Positions 26,983 through 58,310 of a stretch of 64,000 nucleotides of DNA are shown here, in pieces. A program made the translations under genes and the position numbers. Where the stretch lies: positions 30,898,435 through 30,962,434 of the forward strand of contig NC_089724.1 in NCBI RefSeq assembly GCF_035083965.1. Reading direction: 5' to 3'. This DNA comes from Branchiostoma lanceolatum (Eukaryota > Chordata > Leptocardii > Amphioxiformes > Branchiostomatidae). The notes beneath the pieces are model-generated. The model worked only from the letters and a program-made list of their open reading frames with translations, made no database searches and was not told the DNA's origin. Position 1 is the first letter of the stretch. Every line of letters begins with the position of its first letter.

Positions 26983-28518
26983 TCAATAGTGAGTAGCCAT
27001 GTGGCTAACCAAACCTCCTTTCCGACGCGTACAGTACTCACACAGGTCACACTTGTATGGTTTGTCTCCTGTATGTGTTTTCATATGTCTGGATAGGTTG
27101 GACCTAGTGGTGCGAAATCCACACACACCGCACAGGTAAGGTTTCTCGCCAGTGTGCTCTTCTTTGTGCCGACTCAAGCTCTCTCTCCAGGCCGTGCTGA
27201 AGTCACACTGGTCACACTTGTACGGCTTCTCTCCTGTATGTACTCTCATGTGTTTGGAGAGGTAGGACTTGTTAACTGTAGTGTAACCACACTCCTTACA
27301 CATGTAGGGTTTGTTGCCAGTGTGTTTCGCCATGTGTATGACCAAGTCCGTTTTTCTAGCTGAGTAATAGTCACACTTGTACAGATTGTCTTCTGTATGT
27401 ATCTTCATATGCTGGCGAAGACAGGATCTATCAGGTGTCCTGTACCAGCACTCGCCACACATGTACGGCTTCTCACCAGTGTGTTTTGCCATCATGTGTG
27501 TTTTCAAACTGTCTTTCCAAACAGTGGAATAATCACACTGATCACACTTGTACGGTTTATGTTCTTCATGTTTGGCCATGTGTACCCGTAGACGCTCTTT
27601 CGCAACAGTAGAAAAGTCACACTGGTCACACTTGTGAGGTTTCTCCTCTGCTGACATATGCGTACCCATGTGTCGTTTCAGACGGTCTTTGCGACTTGCA
27701 GAATAGTCACATTGATCACACTTGTAAGGTCTTTCTCCAGTATGCACTGCCATATGACAGTTAAGATGGCCGGGGTTAGTCGTTCTGTACTCGCACTGCG
27801 AACACATGAAGGGTTTCTCACCAGTGTGATTAGCCATGTGTTTGACCAAGTATGATTTCCTGATTGCTGCGTAGTCACACTGGTCACACTTGTACGGCTT
27901 CTCTTTAGTGTGTGTTTTCTTGTGGAGGTATAGCTTGTACTTATCAGCAAACCTGAACCCGCACTCCTTACACTCAAAGCGTTTCTCACCGGTGTGTACG
28001 AACCTGTGTCTATCTAGACTTATCTTCCAGACTGTTGAGAAATCACACTGATCACATTTGTACGGTTTCTCTTCTTCATGTTTGGCCATGTGTTCCTGTA
28101 GACGCACTTTCCGAACAGTAGAAAACTCACACTGGTCACACTTGTGTGGTTTCTCCCAAGCTGACATATGTGTACCCATGTGTTGATTCAGATTGCTTTT
28201 ACGACTTGTGGAATAGTCACACTGCTCACACTTGTGCACCTTTCCCTTTGCTCGACCCATTGGTTGCGTTGCTGTGTCAGGCTTCGAACTGGTCGCAAAG
28301 TTAGGCTCCACAGAAATGTTCTGTTTCTCATCAGCGCTTCCCTGGTCGAAATAAAGTTGTGGCACTTGGAAAAAGCCAGCATGGCTGCTGCTTATGTCCA
28401 ATGGTTCTGCTTCAGGCACGTCTACCATCACACTTTGTGATCTGCCAACCAGAACTTCGGTGGGAGTCCAACAACTTCCCAGAACATCAGAGGGAGACCT
28501 GGAAATCCACGATGTCAT
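26983..28518 (-). CDS. C2H2 zinc-finger protein, 15 fingers
   Basis: A minus-strand coding exon ending at 26983. The frame is open back to 28650; the ATG at 28518 was taken (511 residues), but an ATG at 28428 in good context is equally possible, and an upstream 5' exon may exist. A Ser/acidic N-terminus of about 90 residues without KRAB, BTB or SCAN is followed by 15 tandem fingers of the YKCDQCDYSTxxKxxLxxHM type, joined by TGEKP, EEEKP or AEEKP linkers. Finger 11 reads YKCDYYSARK and lacks its second cysteine, and finger 14 has a short loop. Such proteins are sequence-specific DNA binders in the nucleus; the target here is unknown. Repeated finger pairs (HMGTHMSA..EKPHKCDQC twice) show internal duplication, common in expanding zinc-finger families. 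Confidence 0.9.
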   Translation of the reverse strand: MTSWISRSPSDVLGSCWTPTEVLVGRSQSVMVDVPEAEPLDISSSHAGFFQVPQLYFDQGSADEKQNISVEPNFATSSKPDTATQPMGRAKGKVHKCEQCDYSTSRKSNLNQHMGTHMSAWEKPHKCDQCEFSTVRKVRLQEHMAKHEEEKPYKCDQCDFSTVWKISLDRHRFVHTGEKRFECKECGFRFADKYKLYLHKKTHTKEKPYKCDQCDYAAIRKSYLVKHMANHTGEKPFMCSQCEYRTTNPGHLNCHMAVHTGERPYKCDQCDYSASRKDRLKRHMGTHMSAEEKPHKCDQCDFSTVAKERLRVHMAKHEEHKPYKCDQCDYSTVWKDSLKTHMMAKHTGEKPYMCGECWYRTPDRSCLRQHMKIHTEDNLYKCDYYSARKTDLVIHMAKHTGNKPYMCKECGYTTVNKSYLSKHMRVHTGEKPYKCDQCDFSTAWRESLSRHKEEHTGEKPYLCGVCGFRTTRSNLSRHMKTHTGDKPYKCDLCEYCTRRKGGLVSHMATHY

Positions 28519-29083
28519 CCTGCTCTGTATGGGGTGCAACGTTATGTTACTAAGTAGCTTCCTCCATTTAAACCACGTTGCGAAGAAAAGGTATTCTCTC
28601 TTCAGAATCACACAAATCATAGTGCCTCCCTCCCCACATGCCATGTGCATGCATGTACATGAAACTCATTTGCCGTCCGCCCTCAAAATATCTTAAAAGG
28701 CTCCGGACAATTCAGGGTTACAAATAAAGTAGACAATATTCCGTAGCATACCTCTATTCGTGCTCCAAATGTCGTGTTCTTAGTAATCGCAAAATTTCCT
28801 AGAAATTTCCAAGAAGTTTATCTGCACCATGGATCATGGAGGACACGGAGAGGACACGTCGACAGAAAGGGTCAAAAGAGGTCAAAGGTCGTATGATAAC
28901 CTGATGATAACAATTTGGTCAATGTAGCATGTTTGAGGCTCCTCTGCCACTGCTCAGCTTCAAGCGTGTACTATAAAATCATCCAATATCGAAACGAACA
29001 AGTTATTAACAAATAAAATCCACTTGATGCCAGCACTAATGAATTAAAAAGCTCAATGATAACACAGTGCGTTTGTAAAAGGT
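28519..29083. other. 5' flank of the zinc-finger gene
   Basis: Upstream on the minus strand. It probably holds the promoter and any 5' exon of the zinc-finger gene, but no core promoter motif is clear. No other gene was seen. Confidence 0.35.
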
Positions 29084-31055: not shown

Positions 31056-32166
31056 ACTAGAGTTCCAAGACCTCATACCTTCGCCAAATGATTTTAACCT
31101 TTATGACTGACGTATTAGGAGTGTTTCTCATCAATCATAAATCATACCAGTTGATTGTCTTAAACTATAACATGTCCAAAGTATGAGCTGAACAAATTTA
31201 TCATCAATCATGCAAATGAGGCCCTTATTAGCATAATTTGATTCAACGATGTTCACATTCACATAACGTCCCGATGCCAGAAAAAAGGATTAAATGTATG
31301 AAATTGCCGTCTTTTGCCAGTGTGGAATAATAGAAGTTACTCATTAAGTATGCAAATAAGGCCCACATTTGCATATTTTCTATCTATTAACAGTCCTCTC
31401 GTCCTCAGTTACAATTTGAATTGTCATATCATGGAACAAAGCGGATTTTTAAAGTTGCCTCATTAATTATGCAAATTAGAATCTGATTTGCATAATTATC
31501 GTCCAATCATACTAAGCATCACAAAAGCTATCCACATACCAAAAATCATGACCATCCATCAAGGCCATCATGTTATAGTATTTTCTCATTAATTATGCAA
31601 ATGAGGTCTTCATTTGCATAGTTCATATCAATTAATATTTCTCTCTTCCTCAGTTACATATGTCACATGTTTCGGAGTCCTATCATGGAATTTGGCGGAT
31701 GTATAAACTTTCCTCATTAATTATGCAAATTAGATACTGATTTGCATAAGAAGTGTCTAATCATGTACATCATCACTCAAGCTATCTACCTACCAAAAAT
31801 CATTACCATCCATCAAGCCCTTCTTGAGTTATTCCCTTTCAAAGTCAGACGCAAAACCTGCTCCTGCCGCTAGGGGGCCCAAACCCACACCACTTACTCT
31901 CTGTCCAAAGATCTATCTACCACTTAAAAATAAGTTCCATAGCATGTCCAGAACACGAGACATCAAAACAGGACGTTCCGCTGCAGTACCGTAAGAAGCC
32001 GCTAGGGGGCCCAAAATCTCATCGTTTTTAGGTCTCATCAAAACCTACCAACATACCAAATATCAAGACAATCCATCAAGGCATTCTCGAGTTATTCTGT
32101 GCCACTACAGACAGACAAACAGACAAACGCTACCCTCTGCATAACCTTCTCGGCGAAGGTAATAAA
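31056..32166. mobile_element. Related TTCGCC..GGCGAA repeat, second subfamily
   Basis: It starts ACTAGAGTTCCAAGACCTCA..TACCTTCGCC and ends CTCGGCGAAGGTAATAAAG, so the ends mirror each other. The body alternates TTATGCAAATGAGG and TTTGCATA phrases with CTTGAGTTAT-type phrases, a pattern also glimpsed at 600-1000. No open frame. Confidence 0.7.
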
Positions 32167-40209: not shown

Positions 40210-41154
40210 ATGAAAGCAGGTAGATTGTTTTTGCTCGTTGCTTTGGGATCTCTTTGGTCAGGATGTACTCATTGCCTCCCGACTGGGTGTAAAATCAGGA
40301 GGCTGGAGCTGCCTGTCTCTGGCACAACTGTTGAATGTAAGTTCCTGGGTCTCACCCAGATCCCTCACGATATACCGCCGAACGCTGACCGGGTCGTCCT
40401 CACCTACAACGCCTTCAGAACCGTGACGTCCCCGCCGCCATTGCCTCAGCTATACGCCCTGGACCTGAGCTACAACTTTATCCAGTATGTGGCCTGGGAA
40501 TCCCTGTGCAATCTGCCTGCTCTGGAGGTTCTTTATCTGAATAATGACCGACTGCAGTATGTGAAACTGGACACCGTCATTGAATACCTACCAAGACTGA
40601 GAAATGTTTATTTTGCCCGTAACAAGCTAGTGTCCTGTACACTGTACGAGGTAGGTTGGCCACAAGTGACAGCGGTATCTTTGAGGGGAAACACCGCTCC
40701 ATGTGACTGCTCGGGCTCATTCTACGGGCTTACCGAGAGAACGTGCCTGGAGAGGGGAGTCGACGCCCGCTGCTCCTCATGCTCAGCCTGCTTCTTTCTC
40801 TCAGGTCGAAAACGTACAGGCCTTCACTGCAAGCGTCCAGAAGAGGCAAACCAGCTCCCTGCCTCAAACGTCTCTACCCATCTGGAGGAATGTGAGCGTC
40901 AACAGTCAACAGCAAGAGCTGCCGCAACAGAATTAGCCATGATGACTACCGAAGAAGCTCAACGTCAAATGCACAGTTCAGAGATGGACACTTCTAGTAC
41001 CAAAGATGAAGTAAAATCTTTACAGCCTACCGCAAGACCTAAGACTACTTCTACAGCGTCAATCATGATGGGTACCGAAAAGTGCCCCCCTCAGACATCT
41101 GAGGGGGCACTCTACCCACCGATGGTTCATACCACAGCACCGCGGCAACCTTAA
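40210..41154 (+). CDS. Leucine-rich-repeat receptor-like ectodomain (first frame of a split gene)
   Basis: 314 residues. Residues 1-23 are a signal peptide (MKAGRLFLLVALGSLWSGC). A Cys-flanked LRR N-cap follows (TTVECKFLGLTQIPHDIPPN), then four to five leucine-rich repeats (LYALDLSYNFIQYV, LEVLYLNNDRLQYV, LRNVYFARNKLVSC, VTAVSLRGN) and an LRR C-cap (APCDCSGSFYGLTERTC..LHCKRPEE). A Ser/Thr-rich stalk rich in Met-Thr-Thr-Glu follows. The frame ends at 41152-41154 just after a G run. The next frame, open from 41103, supplies a membrane helix and cytoplasmic part, so this is most likely the outside half of one single-pass receptor-like protein, intronless over this stretch. Ligand unknown; similar LRR surface proteins serve adhesion or innate recognition. 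Confidence 0.8.
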   Translation: MKAGRLFLLVALGSLWSGCTHCLPTGCKIRRLELPVSGTTVECKFLGLTQIPHDIPPNADRVVLTYNAFRTVTSPPPLPQLYALDLSYNFIQYVAWESLCNLPALEVLYLNNDRLQYVKLDTVIEYLPRLRNVYFARNKLVSCTLYEVGWPQVTAVSLRGNTAPCDCSGSFYGLTERTCLERGVDARCSSCSACFFLSGRKRTGLHCKRPEEANQLPASNVSTHLEECERQQSTARAAATELAMMTTEEAQRQMHSSEMDTSSTKDEVKSLQPTARPKTTSTASIMMGTEKCPPQTSEGALYPPMVHTTAPRQP

Positions 41155-41252: not shown

Positions 41253-43697
41253 ATGAAGACACCAGAGGACAAAGAACTTCCAATTGCTTACATCGCCATC
41301 GTCGTGTTTGAAAGCGTGCTGACGTTGATGTCCATCACCTGCTTCGCTCGACTGCTTCTGACGAGGTACAGAATGCGGGGCGATCGTCCTGAAGAAGCGA
41401 ATAGGGACCATTCCATCCCTTTGCATCAGATCTCCTCAGCAATAGCCAACTCTATACACAACATTACTTCTGCAGGAGGAAGCGATCATGAACATCTAGC
41501 CAACTCTACACACAGCAGTACTGCTGCAGGAGGAGGCGATCAGGAGCATCTAGCCAACTCTACACACAGCAGTACTACTGCAGGAGGAGGCTATCACGAA
41601 CATCTAGCCAACTCTACACACAGCAGTACTACGGCAGGAGGAGGCGTTCGGGAGCATCTAGCCAACTCTACACACAGCAGTACTACTGCAGCAGGAAGCG
41701 ATTACGAACATCTAGCCAACTCTACACACAGCAGTACTGCTGCAGGAGGAGGCGATCAGGAGCATCTAGCCAACTCTACACACAGCAGTACTACGGCAGG
41801 AGGAGGCTATCACGAACATCTAGCCAACTCTACACACAGCAGTACTACTGCAGCAGGAAGCGATCACGAACATCTAGCCAACTCTACACACAGCAGTACT
41901 ACGGCAGCAGGAAGCGATCACGAACATCTAGCCAACTCTACACACAGCAGTACTACTGCAGGAGGAGGCTATCACGAACATCTAGCCAACTCTACACACA
42001 GCAGTACTACGGCAGGAGGAGGCGATCGGGAGCATCTAGCCAACTCTACACACAGCAGTACTACCGCAGGAGGAGGCGATCACGAACATCTAGCCAACTC
42101 TACACACAGCAGTACTACGGCAGGAGGAGGCGATCAGGAGCATCTAGCCAACTCTACACACAGCAGTACTACTGCAGGAGGAGGCTATCACGAACATCTA
42201 GCCAACTCTACACACAGCAGTACTACGGCAGGAGGAGGCGATCAGGAGCATCTAGCCAACTCTACACACAGCAGTACTACTGCAGGAGGAGGCTATCACG
42301 AACATCTAGCCAACTCTACACACAGCAGTACTACTGCAGCAGGAAGCGATCACGAACATCTAGCCAACTCTACACACAGCAGTACTACGGCAGGAGGAGG
42401 CGATCGGGAGCATCTAGCCAACTCTACACAAGGCAATACTACTGCAGCAGGAAGCGATCACGAACATCTAGCCAACTCTACACACAGCAGTACTACGGCA
42501 GGAGGATGCGATCGGGAGCATCTAGCCAACTCTACACACAGCAGTACTACGGCAGGAGGAGGCGATCGGGAGCATCTAGCCAACTCTACACAAGGCAATA
42601 CTACTGCAGCAGGAAGCGATCACGAACATCTAGCCAACTCTACACACAGCAGTACTACGGCAGGAGGAGGCGATCGGGAGCATCTAGCCAACTCTACGCA
42701 CAGCAGTACTACTGCAGGAGGAGGCGATCGGGAGCATCTAGCCAACTCTACACAAGGCAATACTACTGCAGCAGGAAGCGATCACGAACATCTAGCCAAC
42801 TCTACGCACAGCAGTACTACGGCAGGAGGAGGCGATCGGGAGCATCTAGCCAACTCTACACAAGGCAATACTACTGCAGCAGGAAGCGATCACGAACATC
42901 TAGCCAACTCTACACACAGCAGTACTACGGCAGGAGGAGGCGATCGGGAGCATCTAGCCAACTCTACGCACAGCAGTACTACGGCAGGAGGAGGCGATCG
43001 GGAGCATCTAGCCAACTCTACACACAGCAGTACTACTGCAGGAGGAGGCTATCACGAACATCTAGCCAACTCTACACACAGCAGTACTACTGCAGGAGGA
43101 GGCGATCAGGAGCATCTAGCCAACTCTACACAAGGCAATACTACTGCAGTAGGAGGCGATCACGAACATCTAGCCAACTCTACACACGGCAGCACATTTG
43201 CAGGAGCGGACGATCACAGGCAGCTAGCCAACTCTACATACGGCACAACTTCTGCAGGACGGGGCGAAGATCTATTCTCCAAGCAGAGGTTTCGGTCGGG
43301 GGGGGGGGTAGTAGTGGCCGTTACGGGAGGCAATGTTAAAAAAACACGGCCACTACTACCCCCCCCCCCGACCAAAATAATTGAATTACGCTTGCCTCGT
43401 GCCCTCTTGGTGAATGATGAGATGCAGTGTTACCACCAACTTCTGTATAATCTAGTCCTTACTTCGATACTCAGTTCCGTTTGCTTGTTTTCCCTGCTAT
43501 TTGCAGCAGTTCATTTGCAGATCGTTGGTATACACACAAAGGAAGAGCGGTTGATCTCTTTGCACGCGGCGCTCCCATTTTCAGGGAAGAATCTAGCCAC
43601 AAAAACGCGGCAAAAATGTTGTATTTACTATTATCAAACAGATTCAAGAAATAAAACGTTATATTATGTATTTGCTTCCTGTTCCCGTCTACTGTGA
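41253..43697 (+). CDS. Transmembrane helix plus 18-residue tandem repeats (second frame of the split LRR gene)
   Basis: The frame is open from 41103; the first ATG is at 41253 (814 residues). It starts with a membrane helix (LPIAYIAIVVFESVLTLMSI) followed by RYRMRG, so by the positive-inside rule the rest faces the cytosol. About 34 copies of DHEHLANSTHSSTTAGGG-type units follow. After the last unit, at about 43275, the reading frame enters a hairpin insertion and a tail with a second hydrophobic stretch (LTSILSSVCLFSLLFAAV) that is probably not original. AATAAA is near 43652. The join to the upstream LRR frame needs one additional base in the G run at 41103-41107. Neither the repeat nor its role is recognised. 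Confidence 0.65.
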   Translation: MKTPEDKELPIAYIAIVVFESVLTLMSITCFARLLLTRYRMRGDRPEEANRDHSIPLHQISSAIANSIHNITSAGGSDHEHLANSTHSSTAAGGGDQEHLANSTHSSTTAGGGYHEHLANSTHSSTTAGGGVREHLANSTHSSTTAAGSDYEHLANSTHSSTAAGGGDQEHLANSTHSSTTAGGGYHEHLANSTHSSTTAAGSDHEHLANSTHSSTTAAGSDHEHLANSTHSSTTAGGGYHEHLANSTHSSTTAGGGDREHLANSTHSSTTAGGGDHEHLANSTHSSTTAGGGDQEHLANSTHSSTTAGGGYHEHLANSTHSSTTAGGGDQEHLANSTHSSTTAGGGYHEHLANSTHSSTTAAGSDHEHLANSTHSSTTAGGGDREHLANSTQGNTTAAGSDHEHLANSTHSSTTAGGCDREHLANSTHSSTTAGGGDREHLANSTQGNTTAAGSDHEHLANSTHSSTTAGGGDREHLANSTHSSTTAGGGDREHLANSTQGNTTAAGSDHEHLANSTHSSTTAGGGDREHLANSTQGNTTAAGSDHEHLANSTHSSTTAGGGDREHLANSTHSSTTAGGGDREHLANSTHSSTTAGGGYHEHLANSTHSSTTAGGGDQEHLANSTQGNTTAVGGDHEHLANSTHGSTFAGADDHRQLANSTYGTTSAGRGEDLFSKQRFRSGGGVVVAVTGGNVKKTRPLLPPPPTKIIELRLPRALLVNDEMQCYHQLLYNLVLTSILSSVCLFSLLFAAVHLQIVGIHTKEERLISLHAALPFSGKNLATKTRQKCCIYYYQTDSRNKTLYYVFASCSRLL
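41438..43262 (+). repeat. 54-bp coding tandem repeat, about 34 copies
   Basis: Unit core CATCTAGCCAACTCTACACA and CAGCAGTACTACTGCAGGAG. Units differ mainly at the junction (GGCGATCGGGAG, GGCTATCACGAA, AGCGATCACGAA) and in an occasional CAAGGCAATACT variant. A six-variable pattern recurs in blocks (for example the alternation at 42360-42900), indicating recent multi-unit duplication. The second forward frame is also open for 277 codons, as a by-product. Confidence 0.95.
43294..43373. mobile_element. Hairpin insertion with 28-bp perfect arms
   Basis: 43294-43321 (GGTCGGGGGGGGGGGTAGTA start) is mirrored exactly by 43346-43373, each arm including an 11-base G or C run. It is preceded by CTCCAAGCAGAGGT, a phrase also found at about 46974 inside the large transposon, pointing to a dispersed element. 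Confidence 0.8.
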
Positions 43698-44725: not shown

Positions 44726-45735
44726 ATGCAAGAAGTGGGCTGTCCCAAAATAACCCCTGGGCAAATCGAAATATTAACTGCATGTAGGAAGGCAACATTT
44801 GCAAGAGCATCATTACGAACACCTACAACCATCGTTATCATTACGAACACCTACAACCACTACCACGAACCAGAAATAGTGGCTCCATTGGCCAACAGTG
44901 ACCACAATTGCATCATTTGGAAGCCAAAGGTTAGCAAACCTGCCAACAACAAGATACTAAAGAAGCGGGTACGGCCGCTGCGACAGTCTGACTTAAGGGC
45001 ATTCGGATCTTGGATTACGAACCACCAATGGGAAGAAGTCTTCAGTGCTGCGAGGGTGAATGATAAGTGCTCGGCTTTCTATGCTACTTTACTTGGTGCA
45101 GTGAACAGGTACTTCCCGATAAAAACAGTGCGACTCCACATCCAAGACAAGCCCTGGGTCACCCCGCAACTAAAGACCATGATTAAAGAACGACAAAAAG
45201 CCTTCACTGAAGACGATCTGACAAAGTGGAAGTGCCTCCGAAACAAAATCAACCACACGATCAGATCTCTGAAGAAGAGCCACTACAAAACCAAGGTCAA
45301 ACACCTTAAATCTGCGGAACCAAAAAAGTGGTACAAGGCTATTAAGGATATGACAGGCAAGAAAGGAGAACTGAGTATTGAAGTGCCTGGTGTCCCGTCA
45401 TCATCCCCTAAAGCTGTTGCTGATGCTATCAACTCCCATCTGGCAGCAGCATCACAACAGCACGCGCCGCTGCAACTGGAAGAGCTCCCAGCCTACCTTC
45501 CTGCTCCAGCACCAGCACCCTCTGTCTCGTTTTGGGATATGCTTCATAGGTTGGAGAATGTTAAAATTGGAAAAGCCACCGGCAGTGATGACATCTCACC
45601 CAGAATCATCCGTGAGTTTGCCTTCGAACTGTGTCAACCGCTGTGTAACATAATGAACACGTCGCTCAGTCAAGGTGTGGTTCCTGACGCTTGGAAGGAC
45701 GCAGACGTGGTCCCAGTTCCCAAGGAGACGCCGCC
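44726..45735 (+). pseudogene. LINE-A ORF2, 5' part (endonuclease end to RT motif 1), interrupted
   Basis: An open frame with PLANSDHNCIIWKP (the SDH motif closing an APE-type endonuclease), DKPWVTPQLKTMIKERQ, KPKKWYK-like KKWYKAIKDMTG, then KIGKATGSDDISPRIIREF and DAWKDADVVPVPKETPP, the start of a CR1/Jockey-type reverse transcriptase. The endonuclease N-terminus is missing, so the copy is 5'-truncated. The frame is cut at 45736 by the large transposon and resumes at 57107 (SLTKLRPISLTSIF). Apart from that insertion this part of the frame is intact, so the LINE copy is young. Confidence 0.85.
45729..45735. repeat. Target-site duplication, left (CGCCGCC)
   Basis: CGCCGCC here and at 57100-57106 flank the 11.4-kb transposon. 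Removing one copy and the element restores the LINE-A frame (..KETPP / SLTKLRP..). Confidence 0.9.
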
Positions 45736-45958
45736 CACCCGGTACATATCCAATTCTCGATAGTAATGGTGTTATAGGCAAAGCAATAAGTGCATAGCTA
45801 TGGTACCAGAGTACGTCCTCCCGTCCTCTGAAGGACATTGATTCACGATAACTATGGGGCATAAAGATATTGGCTCCGGCGCGCAGGCTGTGGCCCCGGC
45901 CTGCGCACAGGCTGATGGGATAGCCGTGACCTGCACCGAACCTTTCAAAATGGCGGCT
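45736..45958 (+). repeat. Left terminal inverted repeat (223 bp)
   Basis: Identical to the inverse of 56877-57099. It contains GC-rich sequence (CCGGCGCGCAGGC) and ends at the inner side with TTTCAAAATGGCGGCT, a YY1-like, promoter-type motif that also provides an ATG in good context. Reading inward, the ATG gives MAAAISLQP.. for 33 codons on the left, but only MAA then a stop on the right. Confidence 0.95.
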
Positions 45959-45961
45959 GCG

Positions 45962-46112
45962 ATTAGTCTCCAACCAGACCCAATGGATTGCAAAGAAGAC
46001 CGTATCCAACTGGAAGAAGGAGCTTATAGTGCAATCTTGGGTTGGCTATGAAAACTCCTTCTGCCTGTTGGATACGGTCTTTGCCAACCCGTAGGTCTGC
46101 TCGGAGACTAGG
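45962..46112. repeat. Foldback repeat just inside the left TIR
   Basis: TAGTCTCCAACCAGACC..GACCGTATCCAACTGG on the left mirrors CTGTTGGATACGGTCTTTGC..GGTCTGCTCGGAGACTA on the right, with mismatches. A hairpin MITE or an internal symmetrical piece of the transposon. Confidence 0.6.
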
Positions 46113-46117
46113 CTGCG

Positions 46118-49100
46118 ATGCCGAGGACGACCAGGGCACATGGACCACTACAGTACATACGGAGGAAATGGGAAATTAACAACCCAAAAGGTAAGACAAA
46201 AAAAACTGCTTGTTGCAAGTAACATTTGCTCTGTATCTCCTTGCATCGATGCAGGTAAGGACAAATATATCCCGAATCCCTTTGATCGCATAACAGTTAT
46301 ACTGTAATGGTACGCTATATGTGTTGACAGCCATATAATTTTACATTGGCGGACCATAACCAAGACTATAACGTTCTTTATCGGGTCAAGAAGGTCCCTT
46401 GGTTGGTTGTTGTACCCAGTCACCTGCAAATATTATACTAACCATAATGCATGTGTCAAGGTGAACAATGCGAGGATGTGTGCCATCACAACGATATTTA
46501 CGATGCACAGTACTACCTAAACACAAACTGAAACTGGATGTGTTTTTTTCCTGACTGGTACAAATCATATAGTTCAAGACTCCTTGTAGCGACTATGCTT
46601 TAACCTTTTGAATACAACGACAGAGATAGAAATACCTAACCAGTATCACTGTATCAGCCCTCTCCTGATTGTAATATTAATATACATATGCTCGTGACAT
46701 TTGTTAACTGTGGGTTCCCGAAAAAGGTGAGCTGGGCTAGTGGGGGTGTTTTACCTCAACACGATACCCTTTCTGGGCCCCAAGGCTATTCTATCTATAT
46801 ACAATACTGGGCAAAGCCCGATTGGGGCATCGCACCCAGGGGTTTTTCATGGGGGTTTGGCCTTTAATAGAATATCGTGAGGAAAAGATGGGTCAATAAT
46901 CTCAATGTGAGGTTGGGCTGTCGGGAAGACAGCTAGTACTGAATATTTTGCTGGGGGATTGGGGTTACTCTCCAAGCAGAGGTCCTGGTCGAGCAGGGTT
47001 AGCCTGGTCACCCGTCTGTACGGGTCGGCTTAGGTGTGTTCTACCGGGCCCAGTCTGCTATATTGACCCGCTTCTGTCAGATTGTCTTCTTAGCTGCCAT
47101 ATACTGATATAGAGTTTCGCAGCCACTGTAGTTTCGCTGCCACCGTAGTTTAATCCAATGGGGTGAACCAACACCCCGAGCAGGCTAAGCTCTCTGGGTA
47201 GGTGGGGTTCACTCACAGTGCCCTGGAGATATCGAGTCTCTCTCCCCTCACCTCTGTGACAGAACAGAATGCTTCAAGCCTTTTAGATATAATGACTCTG
47301 ACACATTATGGCCGATTTGTAACAGGCACGGAGTCTGACACAGTTTAGATTTACTGTTCATAGTTTCTGATTGCCCGCTGTGGGTGTCTCTGGTCTTGCC
47401 ACAGTCCAACGTGTGTGTAAACTTTGTAAATGCATGTCTGTTTTCTGCTCTTTCATTCTCCCCATAGCTGACCGCGTGATTTTGATACATCATTGTACTT
47501 GATTTGCTATTGATTTGTTTGTGTATCAGTCGGTACAAGATGGTACTGGTTAAGTTCCTGGAGAAAAAAAACTCATAGTGCTCTGACATTCGGCTACTTT
47601 TGCAACAATATTTAATTACAGTTCAAAACATAAACACGTTTATTTCACATACGTTGCTTTCATTCTTTTGTCATATTTGGGGAAAATTGAAGTGTTTGTA
47701 AACGAAAAACAACAAAAAACACTAGCTATGAAGACAGCAGCATGGGGGCAGCATGGGGCCAGCACGGCTGGCTGGACAATTACCCCAAGTGTCAATGAAT
47801 GAATTACAATGAATTAATGGTATGCAGGGCGGGACAGCGACACTGATTCTGAAAGGAATGCCCCACCCTTATGCATTTGGTGGCAAATATGAACGGAGAG
47901 AGACATTAAAAATCCCGGACACTCCTACCCTACTCGACTGAAACCTGCTTGGAGAATACTATAGAATGTGGTAACGTTACCTGTCTTTCCCCTTACCTGG
48001 GGGATGGGAATGGATGTGTGTGTGGGAGGGGGGATGGGAATGGATGTGTGTGTGGGAGGGGGGATGGGCAATGAGCATGCACCACAGTGAACACAGACAG
48101 GACCAGTCTTTTAAACATGGAATACACGGTTATCTTCCCTGTACCTATACAATACTAGTATACTGCTAGTCAGGCCTACAGGATACAGCATAGTGGCATG
48201 TGTATCCTGCACAAAAAAAGGAACAACACAAATGACACTAAACATTGTACAAACACACACACATTTATACCTGGGAGTCCAGCCTTCTTAGCTTTAGTCC
48301 ACTACCCAAGCTGTGCTCCTCGTCAAGGAGTAGCGGACTAAAGCTAAGAAGACTGGACTCCAAGCTAATGCATTCAGGCACACTCAGTTAGTGTGAGACT
48401 CTGAGTAGTTTTGAATTTGTGTCATACAATGGCTCTCTCATTGCTTGGCCCATCCAACTTCCAGTTTTATTTATTAATTTTCTACTTGTACCCCTCCCCT
48501 TACACTCTAAATTGTATATTATAGAATTTTGTTTATAATGGATGGCTTTTCTACCAGTCTTGGTCGAGATCTTCATTGCTGCCACCAACCACCACCCCCT
48601 ACCCTCATCTCCCAGCAATATGATGAGCAGGTGCCTTCCCTCCAACCCACCCACATCTAGCTGTATTCTGTTTTACGCAAATCCCTGCTGTCCGGACCTT
48701 TTTTAGGGGCTGACCAGTGTTGGGCGACCGCTATAACCGTGATTCAATCAGGATAACCCACAGCTTGACCCATTTTTTCCTCAAGGAGATACTGATCATG
48801 AGTATAAGAGTCCAAACTCCCATACTAGTACATAGCTATAGGGTTGAAGCCAAGAAATGGTAGCCTGCTGAGGTACCCCAACCCACTAGCCTAGCCCTTG
48901 TACCAGTGTACCAGGTAGCTCCCTTTTTCCCGAAGGCCATATTCAGTGTATGGAAAGTTGCCAACTGTGAAATGTTAGAAAAAGATTTCTAAATGATGAC
49001 CTATATGATTGTTATGCTACATTCTAAAATGTACATGGTGCTAGTTTTGTTGGGTTTGACTTCTTTTGAGGCAGTGGAAGACAAACTACATGTGATTCTA

Positions 49101-49501
49101 ATCTTATAGGTAGCAGAGCGCTGCTCAAAGTCACAAAGTTCAAGATATTTCTCAATACAATATACGGTTTTACATTGTCTGTAAAATCTCAGCTTACCAG
49201 GATCAATTGACAAATCATGGAAGAAAGTTTGAATGTACATATGTGAAAGCGTTAAATGTCCTTAATGATTTACACATATGTTCAGGGTCACAGTTTAAAC
49301 TATCAATTTATAATCATGGGTAGGAGTATCCACAGTGGTCGACAATCTCCTTACATTGTAACTCCCTGTAACAGGTAAAATACTGCATACTGTATGGTTG
49401 AATCTACATGTAGGACATGATTTAAATTAAATTCTTCCTTTTTTCCTGTCACAGGTCCCAGAAGTCACACCGTGGAAGTCAACACATGGCTGAACCATTG
49501 A
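46118..49501 (+). CDS. Candidate two-exon mini-gene (39 residues) inside the transposon
   Basis: Exon 1 46118-46190 opens with ATG right after an in-frame stop (MPRTTRAHGPLQYIRRKWEI) and ends at AAAAG/GTAAGA. Exon 2 starts after TTTTCCTGTCACAG at 49455 in matching phase and ends SHTVEVNTWLNH, TGA at 49499-49501. AATAAA at 49788 closes a plausible 3' UTR. The strong donor, acceptor and polyadenylation signal suggest a real transcript beginning in or near the left TIR. The product is short, basic and unlike any family recognised. It could instead be the end of a captured host gene or a non-coding RNA with chance coding sense. Confidence 0.4.
46191..49454. other. Intron-like interior of the transposon
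   Basis: 46728-47260 is a GC-richer, repeat-like block (GGGCAAAGCCCGATTGGGGC, CTCCAAGCAGAGGTCCTGG). A 31-base phrase (GGGGATGGGAATGGATGTGT) is repeated in tandem at 48000-48065. No open frame of note; the 113-codon minus frame at 47248-47589 has no domain. Confidence 0.45.
48274..48361. mobile_element. Foldback MITE with 32-bp arms
   Basis: GGAGTCCAGCCTTCTTAGCT.. (48274-48305) pairs with 48330-48361 with about two mismatches around a 24-base loop. Same family as 21566-21648. Nested inside the large transposon. Confidence 0.85.
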
Positions 49502-49787
49502 TGTGCATGAAGACAGCAGGCCCAACTGAACCACCCCTTCCCTGTCTGCTAACATTATGATGGTCCTGGCAAGCTACATCTACATTAAAACCAGCTTTGA
49601 GAAAACAGTTCATACATTTGGTGAAAAAGTGTAAAAGTCATGTGGAGTATTTTTAGTCCGTCCTATGGCCTGTTTGTTATATATTATCACATTATATATA
49701 TATTTTCCAAAGAACTACTGCTATTTGTTTGTAGCCTTGTAAGTGATGTTTTCAACATCAGTTCTTTAATAGATAAAGAAATGTTTC

Positions 49788-49793
49788 AATAAA
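49788..49793 (+). terminator. Polyadenylation signal AATAAA of the mini-gene
   Basis: AATAAA about 290 bases after the stop codon of the plus-strand mini-gene, in an AT-rich 3' region. Position fits a cleavage signal. Confidence 0.45.
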
Positions 49794-50627
49794 GTTACTG
49801 ACGTTTCTGACATTTCAGTCCTAGTGGTGATTGTGTCTTTTCCTGACTGGTAATTATGTGCATAGAAGGGTACATGTCATTTCACATTTGACTCAAAGAC
49901 AGGTCCACTATGGATAAGAATGCAAAGATCATATTCTGGATAATAGATAGTGTTTATTGACAATGGATATTGTGGTAATATAGCCTTGTGTTGGGCATGG
50001 TTGGTTCCTGTAACCAACGCCTAAACCACAGAGTGAGCGAAGCCCTACGTAAAATACATGTATACATCTTGTAATCTTACAGAACTTGATCCATTTGTCA
50101 AGTCATACATACTCATAGGTCAAGTTAAAATTTACAGGTCCACTTTCAGTATATTCAGATTTGTTTCTTTCAAAATATGGTAAAAAGCAGATTCAATCAA
50201 AATCAGCGAAGGTAAATTCTATAAACAAGGACATCATTTATCAATCTTACTTTTTAACTTCACCCCTCCCCCCACCATATTGTACATGTACAGCCAGCAG
50301 ACAAAAAGGAATCATAATGGAGTAATACTGATGGCAAATCGTTATGGCAAAATGCAGCCTTCCCAATTGGTCAACATCATTTGGCTACATAATGATAATA
50401 AGTCAGTCTAATTACTTATAACTTTTTTACTTATAACCACTACTAGCCCTAAAAATTGGGCGAAGCAGGAAAAATGTAGGTGCTCCACTATAAAACGTTG
50501 GGAGCACATTAAAGCAAAATTCTTGGAATAGAAGGTAATACCTCTATCAAAGAGTGTTAACAACCTGGAATGAAATATTTCAACAGCTTATGAAAGAAAA
50601 GGCATCATCCTGTTGAGCTCTGTCTAG

Positions 50628-53600
50628 CTACATGTATTTGCTCGGCCCACAGTCATTCTCCTCAGAATGTATGGGGCTGACGACGCCGGGCATGGCTTCA
50701 CCTCTCGTGGTTGTATCAACTGGCCCAGGAGTGTCGATACCTGACTTGGGTTTCACCTGTTGTGATCCTCCTTGCATTCTTCCAGTAACATCATGATTTT
50801 AGTCAAGCCCCCATTACGATGGAAATCATATTGTAAGCCTGGCTGATTGATTCCAGTATGCTACAATTCATGGCCAAATTTTTCCCAACTCAAAACAATT
50901 AAAAAAGGCCATGGTTACACAACAGCAATAAGCCATCACGACACGAAGTGCCTTGTCCACCGTACAGTTAAATAGTGCCCGCCGCCGAGCTCGAGAACGG
51001 CTGGGAAAAAAACATGTTCGCGATCGATTGCAAAAGAATCGTTTTATCTACAGGAAAACTGAGGTTATTTTCAGGTACCCAGTATTATTGACTATCCCGG
51101 TTTGAAATATTTTGACCCTGAGTTGATTTATATACGATCTATGACTATAAACGCTTCAGCATACTGCCGTACGAAGTATCGAAAAGTGTGTATAGTGCGT
51201 GCGACCCCGCGGTAACTGTTATGTGCGACTGAAAAAAAAAAAACAAGTTCGCGATCGATTACAAAAGAATCGTTTTATCTACAGGAAAACTGAAGTTATT
51301 TTCAGGTACGTAGTATTGTTGACTATCCCGGATTGAAATATTTTGACCCTGCGTTGATTTATATACGATCTATGACTCTAAACGCTTCAGCATACTGCAT
51401 TGCGGAGTACCGAAAAGTGTGTAGTGCGTGCGACCCCGCGGTAACTGTTATGTGCGACTGAGAAAAAAACATGTTCGCGATCGATTGCAAAAGAATCGTT
51501 TCATCTACAGGAAAACTGAAGTTATTTTCAGGTACGTAGTATTGTTGACTATCCCGGATTGAAATATTTTGACCCTGCGTTGATTTATATACGATCTATG
51601 ACTCTAAACGCTTCAGCATACTGCATTGCGGAGTACCGAAAAGTGTGTAGTGCGTGCGACCCCGCGGTAACTGTTATGTGCGACTGAGAAAAAAACATGT
51701 TCGCGATCGATTACAAAAGAATCGTTTCATCTACAGGAAAACTGAAGTTATTTTCAGGTACGTAGTATTGTTGACTATCCCGGATTGAAATATTTTGACC
51801 CTGCGTTGATTTATATACGATCTATGACTCTAAACGCTTCAGCATACTGCAGTGCGGAGTACCGTGTATAGTGCGTTTTATCTACAGGAAAACTAAAGTC
51901 AGTTTCTTGTACCCACTATATCGTAGGCAATCCCGGTTGGAAGTATGTCTAACCTGCGTTTATTTGTCAAATATGAGTTGTACGGAGTTCCTGATCGATA
52001 ACGACAGATCTAGAATCGTTTTATGACCCTTTTCTTTGCAGGGAAATTGAAGTTGTTTACAGCTACCCAGCATTGTATGTTATCCCAGTTTTAAATATAT
52101 ATTTACTTGAATGTGTTGATTTGAATATGGAATACGGATGTAAAGAAACACATACACCGTATTAAAGAAATGTCAAGAAAGTCATGTTTTCGGTGCTGCT
52201 TAATTATTTTTGATTGCCAAGTCACTCCAGAAGGTACTAGTATCTGGAAAACGAAGGTTTGATAATAGGCGTCCTAGTGGGTTTCCGGGGTACTGCAACG
52301 ACACTTTCATATCTTGTTTGATATCTCGTGCCGTGGACATGCTATGGCCGTGATTTTAGAGGCAGATAGCTCTTGAGACAGGGTGTAAATTTTGTAGCGT
52401 ATTATCAGCGTATTATTTAAGGGATAACATTACTTGGTGAGGGTATTAGATCATGGGACTTTAGTTAACGATTGTTTGATAAAATACAACCACTCCTTTG
52501 ATCAGTGGCTTGTCTCTTCATCATCACAACAACTATCCGCACACACATGTACACGTAAAGGTACAACTTTTATACGAAGTGGTGCACATTAAATGGCGTC
52601 TCAGGTTTTAAAATGATCCATTAGCTTGTGCATGTATCACTGAAAATACAGATCCCAATTGTGAGGCTAGGTATATACATTTTATTTTGTACAGCATGTA
52701 GGTGAAGACAGTTCATTTCAAGTTCATTCCGGGCTAATTTCAACATTAACAGGTTTTGTACTATATCCTTAAAGCTTTAAGTACAATGTACACGAAAGAC
52801 AACTTACAATAGATTGAAAAGGAATTGTTCAGCTTTGATATTCATGTATTGAAAATAACATTTTTACAAGCCACCATTCATATTGTGTTCATATTCGCAT
52901 GTTCACATCGGTTTTGGGTATCCCAGAGGATGTAATCTGTATAATCAAAGCAACATGGCCTAATGTAATACTACAAGAAAAGGTGCCGAGCAGTATAATG
53001 ATTTGATGGAACGGTCACACAAAATTGGGCCTGAAAAAAAGAACTGCGAGTACTTGCCACCATAATGTTCCAATCGCAAAGTGGACCCTGCTAGCTGATA
53101 TATAAAACAAAACATATAGCAGCTAAATAGCATGTTTGGACTTGCAGTACTGTTCAGCTTAACCGAATAGCTGGTGTACAAGGATATGAAACTCAACCAT
53201 GGAAGAATGCTGTTGTTCCTAGTCAAAATATGATAAAATACAGGGTAAGAAAATGTGTCCTTAATTGAAGAGTACATGTACACAGTTTGTCCTCCAATGT
53301 CTATTCATCTAACAATATCCATTCCATCCATGTTTAACATTGCTGGTGTATTACTAACAGGAACACATGCCTAAATGATGCTGTACTTGGCGCAGACTGA
53401 TGGACAGTCCTTCCTCTATGATGACAATCTCTTACTTCTCATTTCAATGTAACTGCAACAAAGAAATGGGTACTAGGGTGTTATTAGCAAAACACAGTAG
53501 TGGACTTACATGTACAAACTATACGATGAAATGTCTTCATTGTGGGACTGGCATTATACACATACATGTATATCCAATACAGCTATATACTGTCATCACC

Positions 53601-53924
53601 ATCAGACGATAGTTCCTCCTGAATGTCTACAAACTGGTTGGGCCATTGGCATACCTAAAGATGACAGATACATTCTTGGAATGTCAGGTATTCCATCTAT
53701 GTACTGGCCAAACTGCCATGCTTCCAGTTGGAGGAGATGACTGACCAGCAGCCCACTTCTCCTCTCTTCTCACTGTAGCTGTATGCAGGAGTGTTGTTGA
53801 AGCAGGTGGTTGATCACTTCCCTCATCCCCCCTGTCCAACATCTGCTTGTCTTCCCCTGCACCTAGCTTCATGTTCCAGGCTTCTATAGCCTTTCTTGGA
53901 AGGCTCCACGGGACCGGCTTTCAT
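50628..53924 (-). CDS. Candidate two-exon mini-gene (70 residues), minus strand, inside the transposon
   Basis: Exon 1: ATG at 53924 (MKAGPVEPSKKGYRSLEHEA), four bases after a TTTTCTCCAG acceptor, ending at CTAG/GTGCAG (53863). Exon 2: 50778-50628, joined in phase, reading MQGGSQQVKPKSGIDTPGPV and ending EENDCGPSKYM, TAG. The exon 2 acceptor (CTGGAAG) is weak, though TGACTAAAAT upstream resembles a branch point. The composition (polar, Pro/Gly, Lys) is protein-like but no family is recognised. The gene would run from the right TIR side toward the plus-strand mini-gene, so the two would converge. Overlapping alternative frames at 53684-53872 could be used instead. Confidence 0.28.
51002..52060. 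repeat. Tandem repeat, about 227-bp unit, four copies plus a decayed one
   Basis: GTTCGCGATCGATT starts units at 51017, 51247, 51473 and 51699 (spacing 230, 226, 226). Copies 2-4 are nearly identical, copy 1 is diverged, and 51870-52060 is a decayed fifth. Each unit contains GACCCCGCGGTAACTGTTAT and TTTATCTACAGGAAAACTGA. No reading frame crosses a whole unit. It lies near the middle of the transposon. Confidence 0.95.
52061..53860. other. Transposon interior, no clear gene
   Basis: AT-rich. The 107-codon minus frame at 52960-53283 is Tyr/Phe/Ser-rich, with no domain. Two small plus frames at 53400-53740 are also unsupported. Confidence 0.4.
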
Positions 53925-53929
53925 GACCC

Positions 53930-56876
53930 TGGAGAAAATTTTTTAAATAGTTTGGATATTGTAAGATCACATGACAAAAACACAACTGCATGTACATGAA
54001 CCATGTTGTCAGTCCTAAGATCAAGTAGAACATGATGTAGGCGTGTTGAGGGCTAAGCTGAATCTTACCATTATAGCAAAAATACATTTAGTTTCTAGTA
54101 TCTTACCGTACCTAGTCCCATCCTCATGCCTGAGGGCCGGGGACCATTGTAGCATCAAGTACATGCACTTTCTAGTCAACTGATAAAATCAATTGATCAA
54201 AGCAATTGATAAAATCAATTGAACAAGACATACCGGTAAGTGCTAAGGCTAAGCCTGTGTACACTTCTCAATGCAGCTGACATGCCTCTGCATAGTCTAT
54301 GGAAGCGGGGAACCTGGTACCTGGTATTTTGAGTTGAGATCCTGGCAGACCAACAGCCAACCACATCCAACCTCACTCCTAAGTGGGGAATTAGGTCCGC
54401 TATGGTTGGCTGCTGGTCTGAAAGGTTGGCTACTGGTTGCCTGCAACATATTTCAAACATTCCTTTGTTAAAGACGTTTCCCCCCAGGTCGATTTCCCCC
54501 TCCCCCAGTTGTTGCCCCCTTCTGAAATCTGACTTGCTACAATTGCTAAAATACATTGTCTAAGTACACTGAATATACCTATTTTTATGTCAGATAAAAT
54601 CCGCATCATTGTATCCTATACATACTTTCCGAGCAGGCTAATGTACTGAGCTGCGCACCACCGAACCCAACTGTGCGAGCCGGCGGCGGCAATCCTTAAG
54701 TCCGCCCGCCTGACCAAGCCCACTTTGCCCACTGTAGTCCCAAGAATGTCACAATTATTGCTGGCTCATTTAATATTTACGTGTACAGGTTTATAGACGA
54801 CAGCAGCTTCATGTCATTTCCTAGCCTATACTAGGCTATAGTAATCTTTTTGTAAGCATTTTCCGATTTCTGACTGTGACAATATAAAAATGAGACAGCA
54901 TACACTTCCGGTCCGATTTGTGGCCTAACATTCCAATAAACCAAGTTCACCACTCCATTAAAGTGTATATTTGACAAGCACGCCTTCCTTCTGAGTGCTT
55001 TATCTATCAAACCTCTTTGATGTTAGGAAACGCCCAGAAATCACCAATTAAGATGTGCTATTACATTTGATAAACAATGATTTAAATCTATATATTTCTA
55101 AGCAATCATTGACTGATTGAGACCGCAACATTTCTGAGTGGACTACGGCGCAGTTGGCTTGGTCAGGCAAACGGACTTGGTAATCACTGCCCACTAGCAC
55201 AAGTGAGTTTGACAGCGCGTAGCTCTACTCGGAAACTAAGTTTAGAACGACACAGATTTTTCTACGTGAAAGTATCTTGTGAATGTGCATCTAGTATATT
55301 TTCAATCTGATGTGCTAGCTAAATGTAACCCGGTTTACAAACAGCGGGAGGGCTGGGACTGAGGGTAATGCAGACCAGAATACACCATATGTTGTATTTC
55401 ATAAATTTCATACTAACCCAAGAAAACACACATTTCAGTATAGAATGCGCCAGAAGTTGAGGGACTTTTGTGTCCTTGAACAAAAAACTGTAACACCATT
55501 GACTCGAACCTTCGAATCCGGTATTCAAATTTTGGGTGGCGGTGCAACCGGCGTGCTCAAAATGCATTCTAAACATTCAGAAGCCTGTGTGATACAACTT
55601 AGACCCCTGTGTGATACAGAAAATTATCACATGGTCCGGAACACCTATATCAAATGTTTTTGCGGCCCAGGTATGACATAAAAATGCATATAAAAGGGTC
55701 TATATTTCCATGAGATGCAGTTAGTCTCTACCAGACTAACTACGCCGGATATAGGGAGAACATTTGCCGGGGGACTTTGGCCATGGAGGGTTTCAATCGC
55801 AGGCGTAGGGTTGCCTATTGGACCCTCTCTCCGTAGCCAACTCCCTTCATACAATTTACTCTATTTGGCCAATGTCTACTGTTTCCCAGCGACCCGTGGA
55901 GACTGGTACTGGTAGAGGCTAAGATGCAGTGAGCTTTAACAACAATCATAGCTAATCTAATTGAAATGCTAAAATGTTTGTGAAGCGTAAATGGTTGCAT
56001 TTATTCTAGGGAGTGGGAATGAATGAAATGCGACCCATATCCCTACATGAAAACAAGGAGGTTAAAAAGAAATGGTAAGTAAGTGACAATGTCTAGCGGA
56101 AAAATAGACATAAACCAAGGACAACAACAACAAGTAAGTTACTTAGTAGGGGCTTTTACATATACCTTCTTCAAATTCTGATTAGCCCGTATACCATAAT
56201 ACTTCATCTTCTTCTTTCTTTTTGAGGATACCAACTGAAACTTGCTGAAGATTCTGTAACCTATATACTGACTTGCCCCAATAAATTTTACGCTCTACCG
56301 AGGATAGCCCGAGTGTCATCCTAGTTAGTTCCAGGGTTCTCATATCAGCCCTGGAAATATTAACCTTGAATATTCACCTTGAAGTTCAGCCAGTAGGCAC
56401 CCTTTCGAGTAATGAGGCTGTGCATAGTTTGGTGCTACGAGTGGGCATGGTAGTTTCTTTTCCGCTTCTCTCCTTGTCTGTATCTGAAATAATTGATAAA
56501 ATAATAAGATGACACTCAGGCTAGCGCTATTTTCTCGATTTCAAATTATCTTACGGGAAATATTGTGGTTAAACAAGTACGTCCTAGGTCCAAATATACT
56601 TCGTACTGACGATACTTTTCTGATTGTAGATGAGATTATATCTCAGTAACTGAGTTTAATAGGTGTCACTGTTACAGCCCCCCTCCCCGAAGACCATCGA
56701 CGTACAAGTTATGACGTTTTGGCATCCTTACCTGCTACAAAACTGTTGATACCTTGTCCAAATTAGTCGGCACCCACCGCTCTGGTAGATTAGTAGGTCG
56801 TCAGCACTCCAAAAAGTACAGCATCTTTAAAAGTTTGACACGAAATTCGTGTGCACAGAACTGTGTGTATTCTTCA
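53930..56876. other. Right part of the transposon interior: several inverted repeats
   Basis: CAGACCAACAGCCAACCA (54344) pairs with TGGTTGGCTGCTGGTCTG (54403). GCCTGACCAAGCCCAC near 54708 has a looser inverse near 55157 (GGCTTGGTCAGGC), suggesting an old TIR element of about 0.5 kb. AGCCCGAGTGTCATC (56305) mirrors GATGACACTCAGGCT (56509), a MITE of about 220 bp. Near 56726, GCAG/GTAAGG on the minus strand could be a 5' UTR donor for a gene starting from the right TIR. Confidence 0.5.
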
Positions 56877-57099
56877 AGCCGCCATTTTGAAAGGTTCGGT
56901 GCAGGTCACGGCTATCCCATCAGCCTGTGCGCAGGCCGGGGCCACAGCCTGCGCGCCGGAGCCAATATCTTTATGCCCCATAGTTATCGTGAATCAATGT
57001 CCTTCAGAGGACGGGAGGACGTACTCTGGTACCATAGCTATGCACTTATTGCTTTGCCTATAACACCATTACTATCGAGAATTGGATATGTACCGGGTG
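56877..57099 (-). repeat. Right terminal inverted repeat (223 bp)
   Basis: Exact inverse of 45736-45958. The plus-strand frame through it runs on into LINE-A and makes a 518-codon chimeric frame (56754-58310), whose first 118 or so codons are therefore not LINE sequence. Confidence 0.95.
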
Positions 57100-57106
57100 C
57101 GCCGCC
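57100..57106. repeat. Target-site duplication, right (CGCCGCC)
   Basis: Matches 45729-45735 exactly. Confidence 0.9.
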
Positions 57107-58310
57107 AAGCCTGACGAAGCTCAGACCTATCTCCTTGACATCGATCTTTGCGAAAGTGTGCGAGGGATTTGTCACGGACTGGTGTCTTCGCGACATTCTC
57201 CCAAGTATTGATCCACAACAATACGGATCACTTCGCGGTCGCTCTACCACACATTACATGACTCTTCTCACGCATAAGTTGCTAGAAGCAGCGGACAAAC
57301 CTGGCCACGTGACCACACTTGTACTTACCGACTTCTCGCGTGCGTTCGACTCCGTACACCACGAGACCGCCATCAATAAACTGATCGATCTCGGCGTCCG
57401 GCCATCACTTGTGCCATGGGTCAGTAGTTTCATCTCGGGCAGACGACAGAGAGTTAGGTACCGTGGAGCATTGTCGGACTGGCAAACGCTAACATGTGGT
57501 GTCCCACAAGGCACTAAATTGGGCCCGCTGGTTTTCTTAGCCCTGGTAAATGACGCTGTCCCTGTCAACGAGACAACAGCAGACGCATACAAATATGTCG
57601 ACGACATGTCCTTATCAGAATCGCGACATGTGACGAAACCGACGTATATCCAAGACGACATGGATGCCCTTGCCCAGTGGACTGAAGAAAATCACATGAC
57701 TTTAAACCCCTCAAAATGCAAAGTCCTTCTTTTCTGCTTTATGCGCAATAAACCACCACCCCCGGAGATTACAGTCGGTCCTACACAACTGGAAGTGGTT
57801 GACTTTGCACGCATCCTGGGCGTGATCATGCAGACCGATTTGAAGTGGACGAAACATGTTGTCATGATTGTTGGTAGAAGTAGTAGCAGACTGTACATGC
57901 TAAGAACCCTCCGTAAACAGGGCCTGGACTCTCATGACCTGGTGTTAGTGTACATCGGATTCGTACGCCCGGTGTTGGAGTACGCCTGCCAAGTATGGCA
58001 CCCGGGACTGACTGTCGCAGAGTCGGAGTCGATCGAAAGGGTCCAGAAAAGGGCATGTAAGATTATCCTTGGTCGGTCTTACACCAGTTACAACTCAGCC
58101 CTACAAACACTCTCCTTGACACCGCTATCTCAACGACGACGTGAACTCTGCCGAAACTTTGCACTGCTTATGCTAAAGTCCCCTGCTCGCGGTGACATCA
58201 GCACCAGAGACACTAGGCAGAAACACTTATTGGCAACCACCAGAACTAGAACAAATAGATTCAAGAACAGTCCAATCCTTTATATGACCCGTCTTTTGAA
58301 TGGACAGTGA
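57107..58310 (+). pseudogene. LINE-A ORF2, 3' part (reverse transcriptase palm to C-terminus)
   Basis: Continues the frame cut at 45735: LTKLRPISLTSIFAKVCEGF, then TLVLTDFSRAFDSVHH (motif A), LTCGVPQGTKLGPLVFLALV (motif B), YKYVDDMSLSES (motif C, YVDD), NPSKCKVLLF (D), and the thumb region LVLVYIGFVRPVLEYACQVW, IERVQKRACKIILG. All polymerase motifs including the two Asp of YVDD are intact. It belongs to the CR1/Jockey-like group by motif style. A 3' UTR runs to about 58545, where CAATAAACC precedes the end. Without the transposon the ORF2 portion would encode about 740 residues. Confidence 0.9.

Follow-up and report, generated by a model that had tools for sequence, protein, structure and literature searches.

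A large, very probably non-autonomous DNA transposon with identical 223-bp terminal inverted repeats in a LINE frame of the lancelet Branchiostoma lanceolatum

Termini, target site and duplication length

The stretch of DNA analysed here, which we call the window, comprises 64,000 nucleotides of the lancelet Branchiostoma lanceolatum (contig NC_089724.1, positions 30,898,435 to 30,962,434 of the forward strand), and all coordinates below are positions within it. In its right half the reverse-transcriptase frame of a long interspersed nuclear element (LINE) is interrupted by an element with long terminal inverted repeats (TIRs) and a short direct repeat directly outside them. This element is very probably a large lancelet transposon of the cut-and-paste type that is non-autonomous and was moved in trans into the LINE. 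The features that define the insertion are the following.

44768..45735, plus strand: LINE open frame before the insertion (target), from tblastn of P0001 and P0010
45729..45735, no strand: left target duplication, CGCCGCC, 7 bp, preferred over 4 bp by LINE relatives
45736..57099, no strand: transposon proper, 11,364 bp, limits set by the TIRs, duplications excluded
45736..45958, plus strand: left TIR, 223 bp, beginning CACCCGGTACATATCC
56877..57099, minus strand: right TIR, 223 bp
57100..57106, no strand: right target duplication, CGCCGCC, 7 bp
57107..58310, plus strand: LINE open frame after the insertion (target), reverse-transcriptase part, RVT_1 at E 1.1e-24 and tblastn of P0001

An earlier note on this DNA had described the TIRs as identical throughout, and the first and last 223 bases of the transposon are indeed perfect reverse complements of each other (223/223 positions). 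Inward of the TIRs identity is at once that of chance, with matches at 19 of the 100 and 77 of the 300 positions that follow, and the inner edge of the TIRs is sharp. The stretches just inside both TIRs, compared with a nested element skipped, displayed no similarity (local score 21.5; 134 of 200 shuffles scored as high or higher). The element starts with CACCCGG and has the ends CACCC..GGGTG, and its left TIR contains an inverted repeat, GCGCAGGC/GCCTGCGC, at TIR positions 146 and 164. The same note had placed the limits at 45729-57106; the clean insertion stands, but that range includes both duplications.

The window was scanned for perfectly inverted 12-bp ends separated by 80-20,000 bp and bordered directly outside by a 5-11 bp direct repeat; this gave 16 rows: one for this transposon, seven within its TIRs and eight for a palindromic repeat at about 8.1-8.7 kb. 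Among 20 order-1 random sequences used as a control, 18 were without rows and one had two, while one random sequence gave one row with a repeat of at least 7 bp. The palindromic repeat (8145-8677) has inverted ends TCCTAACTTCTG, with TGACGTCA outside, and allows several pairings. A search of the window with the 12-base TIR end, at up to two mismatches, found 4 matches against 3.55 expected, and nothing beyond both ends. Viral contigs scanned with the first 16 TIR bases yielded 19 stretches, none of which matched the whole TIR over more than 23 bases (22 of 23 in two stretches), and these were put down to chance.

When the flanks are joined, an open LINE reverse-transcriptase frame results. The target is, however, periodic in GCC, and a duplication of 7, 4 or 1 bp would each leave this frame open. 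The open frame alone is thus no proof of 7 bp, and LINE relatives were therefore consulted for the duplication length. The relative P0001 spans the gap in tblastn, with residues 188-480 at 44861-45736 and residues 479-886 at 57102-58301; it is in register on both sides, and residues 479 and 480 are met twice, once per copy of the duplication. A protein search was made with residues 601-1000 of a 1000-codon read-through, that is, the piece right of the insertion, and returned 2836 proteins at E <=1e-10 among 7987 scored candidates. Spacing was read in the best 120 of these, of which 13 carry a Branchiostoma name and among which the closest include P0001 of B. lanceolatum (67% over 99% of the query) and P0004 of B. 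belcheri (85% over 34% of the query). Together with a match of the interior to a B. lanceolatum protein, described below, these relatives point to a lancelet host.

Between the motifs PK/AK and LRPISLT/IRPVSLT a 7-bp duplication predicts eight residues and a 4-bp duplication nine. All 13 Branchiostoma-named relatives had eight, 12 of them by script and the thirteenth, P0081, by eye, the script having matched there from an earlier Pro-Leu. For the best 120 the script read eight residues 52 times, nine 28 times, ten 5 times, eleven 8 times and twelve twice; the pattern was unmatched in 25. These relatives strongly favour a duplication of 7 bp, though this LINE copy might have carried one more GCC. 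Such a copy is what the 4-bp alternative requires, in which the true duplication is CGCC, the LINE had an extra GCC codon and the transposon is of the Chapaev (CMC) type. That reading also leaves the LINE frame open, the nine residues it predicts do occur in the 28 relatives just counted, and Chapaev elements duplicate 3-4 bp and invariably end in CAC..GTG (PMC4079192), while the present transposon begins with CAC and ends with GTG. Nine residues were, however, found in none of the 13 Branchiostoma-named relatives (one read by eye), and we consider the 4-bp alternative very unlikely; Chapaev with 4 bp was accordingly set aside. The perfect 7-bp duplication and the restorable frame of the earlier note are both seen, with the relatives and not the frame speaking for 7 bp. 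Upstream of the LINE, on the plus strand, lies an open frame of 814 amino acids (41253-43697) with no Pfam match at E <=0.01, which is perhaps another LINE frame.

Composition and coding potential of the interior

Between the TIRs the following features were found.

45955..46119, no strand: nested hairpin element with its duplications; the element itself is 45964-46110, 147 bp, TAGTCTCC..GGAGACTA
51006..51914, plus strand: 226-bp tandem unit in four copies, 81-100% like the reference copy, followed by a weaker partial copy
53717..53928, minus strand: stretch resembling an ACSF2 cassette, match at 53914-53717, frame broken here
55713..55930, no strand: second nested TAGTCTC element with its duplications; the element itself is 55722-55921, flanked by AGATGCAGT as a 9-bp duplication, found by automatic scan

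The 11.4-kb transposon is composite, since the TAGTCTC elements are nested insertions, and it holds at least two of these together with a tandem array; the 11.4-kb transposon of the earlier note is a precise TIR insertion of mixed content. The hairpin element is flanked on either side by a 9-bp duplication, GGCTGCGAT, and straddles the inner edge of the left TIR. It matches itself inverted and its DNA fold has a z-score of -8.42, with none of 200 shuffles as good; it was found by reading and was missed by the automatic scan (fewer than 11 of 12 end positions agree). The 9-bp duplications of both TAGTCTC elements suggest miniature inverted-repeat transposable elements (MITEs) of the MuDR type. 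A weak match to the hairpin element (74%) lies elsewhere in the window, at 13797-13868, and a short dispersed repeat, 77-79% alike, occurs at 52317-52388 inside the transposon and also at 31894-31967 and 76-133.

The sequence between the TIRs, read through in six frames with stops written as X, was compared with Pfam and gave no match at its cut-off and hence no known transposase. The sole sub-threshold match in the interior was Protamine_3 (E 0.036, 14.7 bits against a cut-off of 25), while an equally long control stretch that included the LINE part returned the reverse transcriptase at E 2.3e-23 by the same method. The longest stop-to-stop frame wholly inside the transposon has 124 amino acids, which bears out the claim that no transposase-sized frame is present. 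Splice sites were scored with matrices composed from general knowledge. On the plus strand no site passed the first thresholds, and lower thresholds gave too few sites for building a gene: on the plus strand 8 donors where 3.3 are expected (the tandem array holds three of the 8) and 3 acceptors where 3.5 are expected, and on the minus strand 3 donors where 1.5 and 4 acceptors where 2.5 are expected.

These counts bear on an alternative in which the transposon has intron-rich genes of its own, started from the TIRs and encoding an enzyme unknown to Pfam, and is autonomous or nearly so, now or recently. It is consistent with an ATG of good context at the inner edge of the TIR; on the plus strand with two sites that resemble donors (46191 and 46255), one that resembles an acceptor (49455) and an AATAAA (49788), and on the minus strand with one that resembles a donor (56731); and with the recurrence of part of the interior sequence in another gene model from lancelets. 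Besides the splice-site counts and the shortness of the longest frame, the putative first exon near the left TIR argues against it, since as the query of a protein search it produced a single candidate and none at E <=10. We judge such genes improbable, if slightly less so than the 4-bp duplication. Two points nevertheless tell against a non-autonomous transposon moved in trans: a transposase could escape detection if Pfam does not know it or if its gene consists of many short exons, and a single copy is seen, the TIR having no match within the 64-kb window beyond the two TIRs themselves.

The window aligns on its minus strand (53914-53717) with residues 287-356 of P0121, a protein of B. lanceolatum called ACSF2; 57 of 70 residues are identical (E 3.8e-25, the sole hit among 13 candidates). 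When P0121 was compared with solved acyl-CoA ligases, the best stretches ended at residues 280-282 or began at 354-367, save those ending further on, and residues 283-353 had no counterpart in the one acyl-CoA ligase alignment shown; Pfam found no domain at this extra stretch of about 70 residues. An acceptor-like TTTTCTCCAG precedes the cassette-like stretch and falls below score 7 of the splice scan. A relative of the stretch at 53717-53928 thus sits at the ACSF2 gene of another lancelet, where it was called coding. The cassette may be a copy of the transposon, a smaller repeat or a captured piece, and the extra residues of ACSF2 as modelled in B. lanceolatum are possibly an exonised repeat. 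Elsewhere in the window lie a 555-amino-acid open frame full of C2H2 zinc fingers (26983-28650, minus strand) and a 314-amino-acid frame with leucine-rich repeats (40210-41154, plus strand).

Candidate enzyme families

The transposon most likely belongs to an already known kind of jumping gene. The earlier note had held that 7 bp and CACCCGG ends lie outside the common superfamilies, and this did not hold, since Galileo, hAT7 and Kyakuja make duplications of 7 bp. Elements of the P superfamily have CA..TG ends, and Galileo, one of its members, starts with CA. A Galileo-type P element fits best because of the 7 bp, the CA..TG ends and the long TIRs, and by this analogy the P superfamily would be our best single guess, held at somewhat less than even confidence. 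Two features of that superfamily are present here, namely a duplication of 7 or 8 bp, here 7, and CA..TG ends. Galileo itself has 7-bp duplications and long TIRs (PMC2775673, PMC4168063) which reach 1.2 kb (PMC2775673); many of its copies lack a transposase, and some contain tandem repeats of about 210 bp. It differs in its insect host, in its consensus target (GTAGTAC or GTATTAC, against CGCCGCC here), in having its tandem repeats within the TIRs where ours lie mid-element, and in its P transposase, of which no remnant was found here.

Several observations weigh against the assignment to P. In Drosophila, Anopheles and zebrafish, P elements are described with 8-bp duplications (PMC1562414, PMC7776569) and TIRs of 13-31 bp, and six-frame Pfam found neither a transposase nor a THAP remnant in the interior that would tie the transposon to P, although a non-autonomous copy is expected to lack the P-type transposase with its THAP domain. 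Its CAC..GTG ends, moreover, are also those of Chapaev and fit RAG-like elements too. The Repbase rule for membership is a terminal 11 bases in common with a known member (PMC4455052).

An undescribed or other family ranks next, as a tentative second choice. KDZ, to which Kyakuja belongs, is doubtful: fungal hAT7 and Kyakuja both have 7-bp duplications and Kyakuja also has CA..TG ends, two traits present here, but Kyakuja families are described without TIRs (PMC12730594), where ours are 223 bp long. Both are reported from fungi, and no KDZ transposase was found in the transposon by Pfam in six frames. An origin in hAT, for which the 7-bp duplications of hAT7 speak, is unlikely, and CMC and RAG/Transib taken jointly are no likelier, Chapaev (CMC) differing by its 3-4 bp duplications from the 7 bp found here.

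The comparison with RAG-like elements involves a further feature of the TIRs, a YY1-like motif.

45947..45955, minus strand: YY1-like motif CGCCATTTT, inner end of the left TIR
56880..56888, plus strand: YY1-like motif CGCCATTTT, inner end of the right TIR

The YY1 motif of lancelet ProtoRAG TIRs is CGCCATNTT (PMC7481187), which CGCCATTTT fits. It could be read as the mark of a RAG/Transib-type element, for instance a non-autonomous ProtoRAG relative with an unusual 7-bp duplication, and the CAC start, the GC-rich target and the lancelet host agree with this. The motif counts as one observation, however, because both TIRs are copies, and its 9-mer pattern occurs five times on both strands of the window, two of the five in the TIRs; it may be there by chance. 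RAG-like elements have CAC ends and duplications that are almost always 5 bp (PMC7204232), whereas the five bases adjoining the ends differ here (CCGCC on the left, CGCCG on the right), so that a 5-bp duplication fails. ProtoRAG, in addition, makes 5-bp duplications, starts with CACTATG where the transposon has CACCCGG, and carries RAG1L and RAG2L genes; no RAG1 or RAG2 domain was found by Pfam in the six frames, though a non-autonomous copy would lack RAG1 too. With no 5-bp duplication and no RAG1-like Pfam match, ProtoRAG/Transib was set aside, and we regard it as the least probable of the alternatives weighed.

Three further groups were rejected. Polinton/Maverick elements have 6-bp duplications, AG..CT ends and polymerase and integrase genes; the 7 bp and CA..TG seen here and the lack of any such domain by six-frame Pfam speak against them. 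Dada families are described without TIRs and with a duplication of 6-7 bp (PMC3706591); 7 bp fits, but 223-bp TIRs do not, and a multicopy RNA gene would be the expected target instead of a LINE frame. No tRNA, and no Rfam family at gathering score, was found in the window. IS3EU has TA..TA ends and usually a 6-bp duplication (PMC10045372), and IS3EU/GingerRoot, with mostly TA..TA ends and 6 bp, were discarded against the CA..TG and 7 bp of this transposon.

Proposed origin, age and meaning

For the non-autonomous transposon that we favour, a transposase made elsewhere in the genome, presumably a DDE-type enzyme acting in trans, would bind both 223-bp TIRs, excise the transposon at its CACCC ends and join it across a 7-bp staggered cut in the LINE reverse-transcriptase gene, where gap repair would create the 7-bp duplication. 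Because perfect TIRs abut an unrelated interior sharply, other DNA and later insertions presumably took the place of the interior or filled it, whereby recognisable enzyme coding would have gone. One way to such an exchange would be gap repair that copies a different template, a route put forward for P-MITEs (PMC1562414).

The difference between the TIRs is below 1.3% at 95%, which lies under the heterozygosity of 3.2-4.2% given for lancelets (PMC12500494), and the insertion is for this reason probably still segregating, so that only some individuals would carry it. The earlier note had called it very young, and no TIR difference is seen; TIR identity, however, bounds the age only from above, because the TIRs are not remade at each jump, and gene conversion between them could make the insertion look younger than it is.

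It is conceivable, though doubtful, that the TIRs come from an undescribed group of animal DNA transposons that duplicates 7 bp, has CACCCGG ends and moves enzyme-less 11-kb elements in lancelets, and that the YY1-like motif here and in ProtoRAG marks a host factor common to unrelated lancelet transposons. The exact insertion, the restorable target and the full TIR sequence are enough to seek the family and its enzyme in lancelet assemblies. Should that enzyme be P-type, a Galileo-like lineage with long TIRs would exist in a basal chordate; if it is not P-type, the transposon would represent a further animal lineage with 7-bp cuts.

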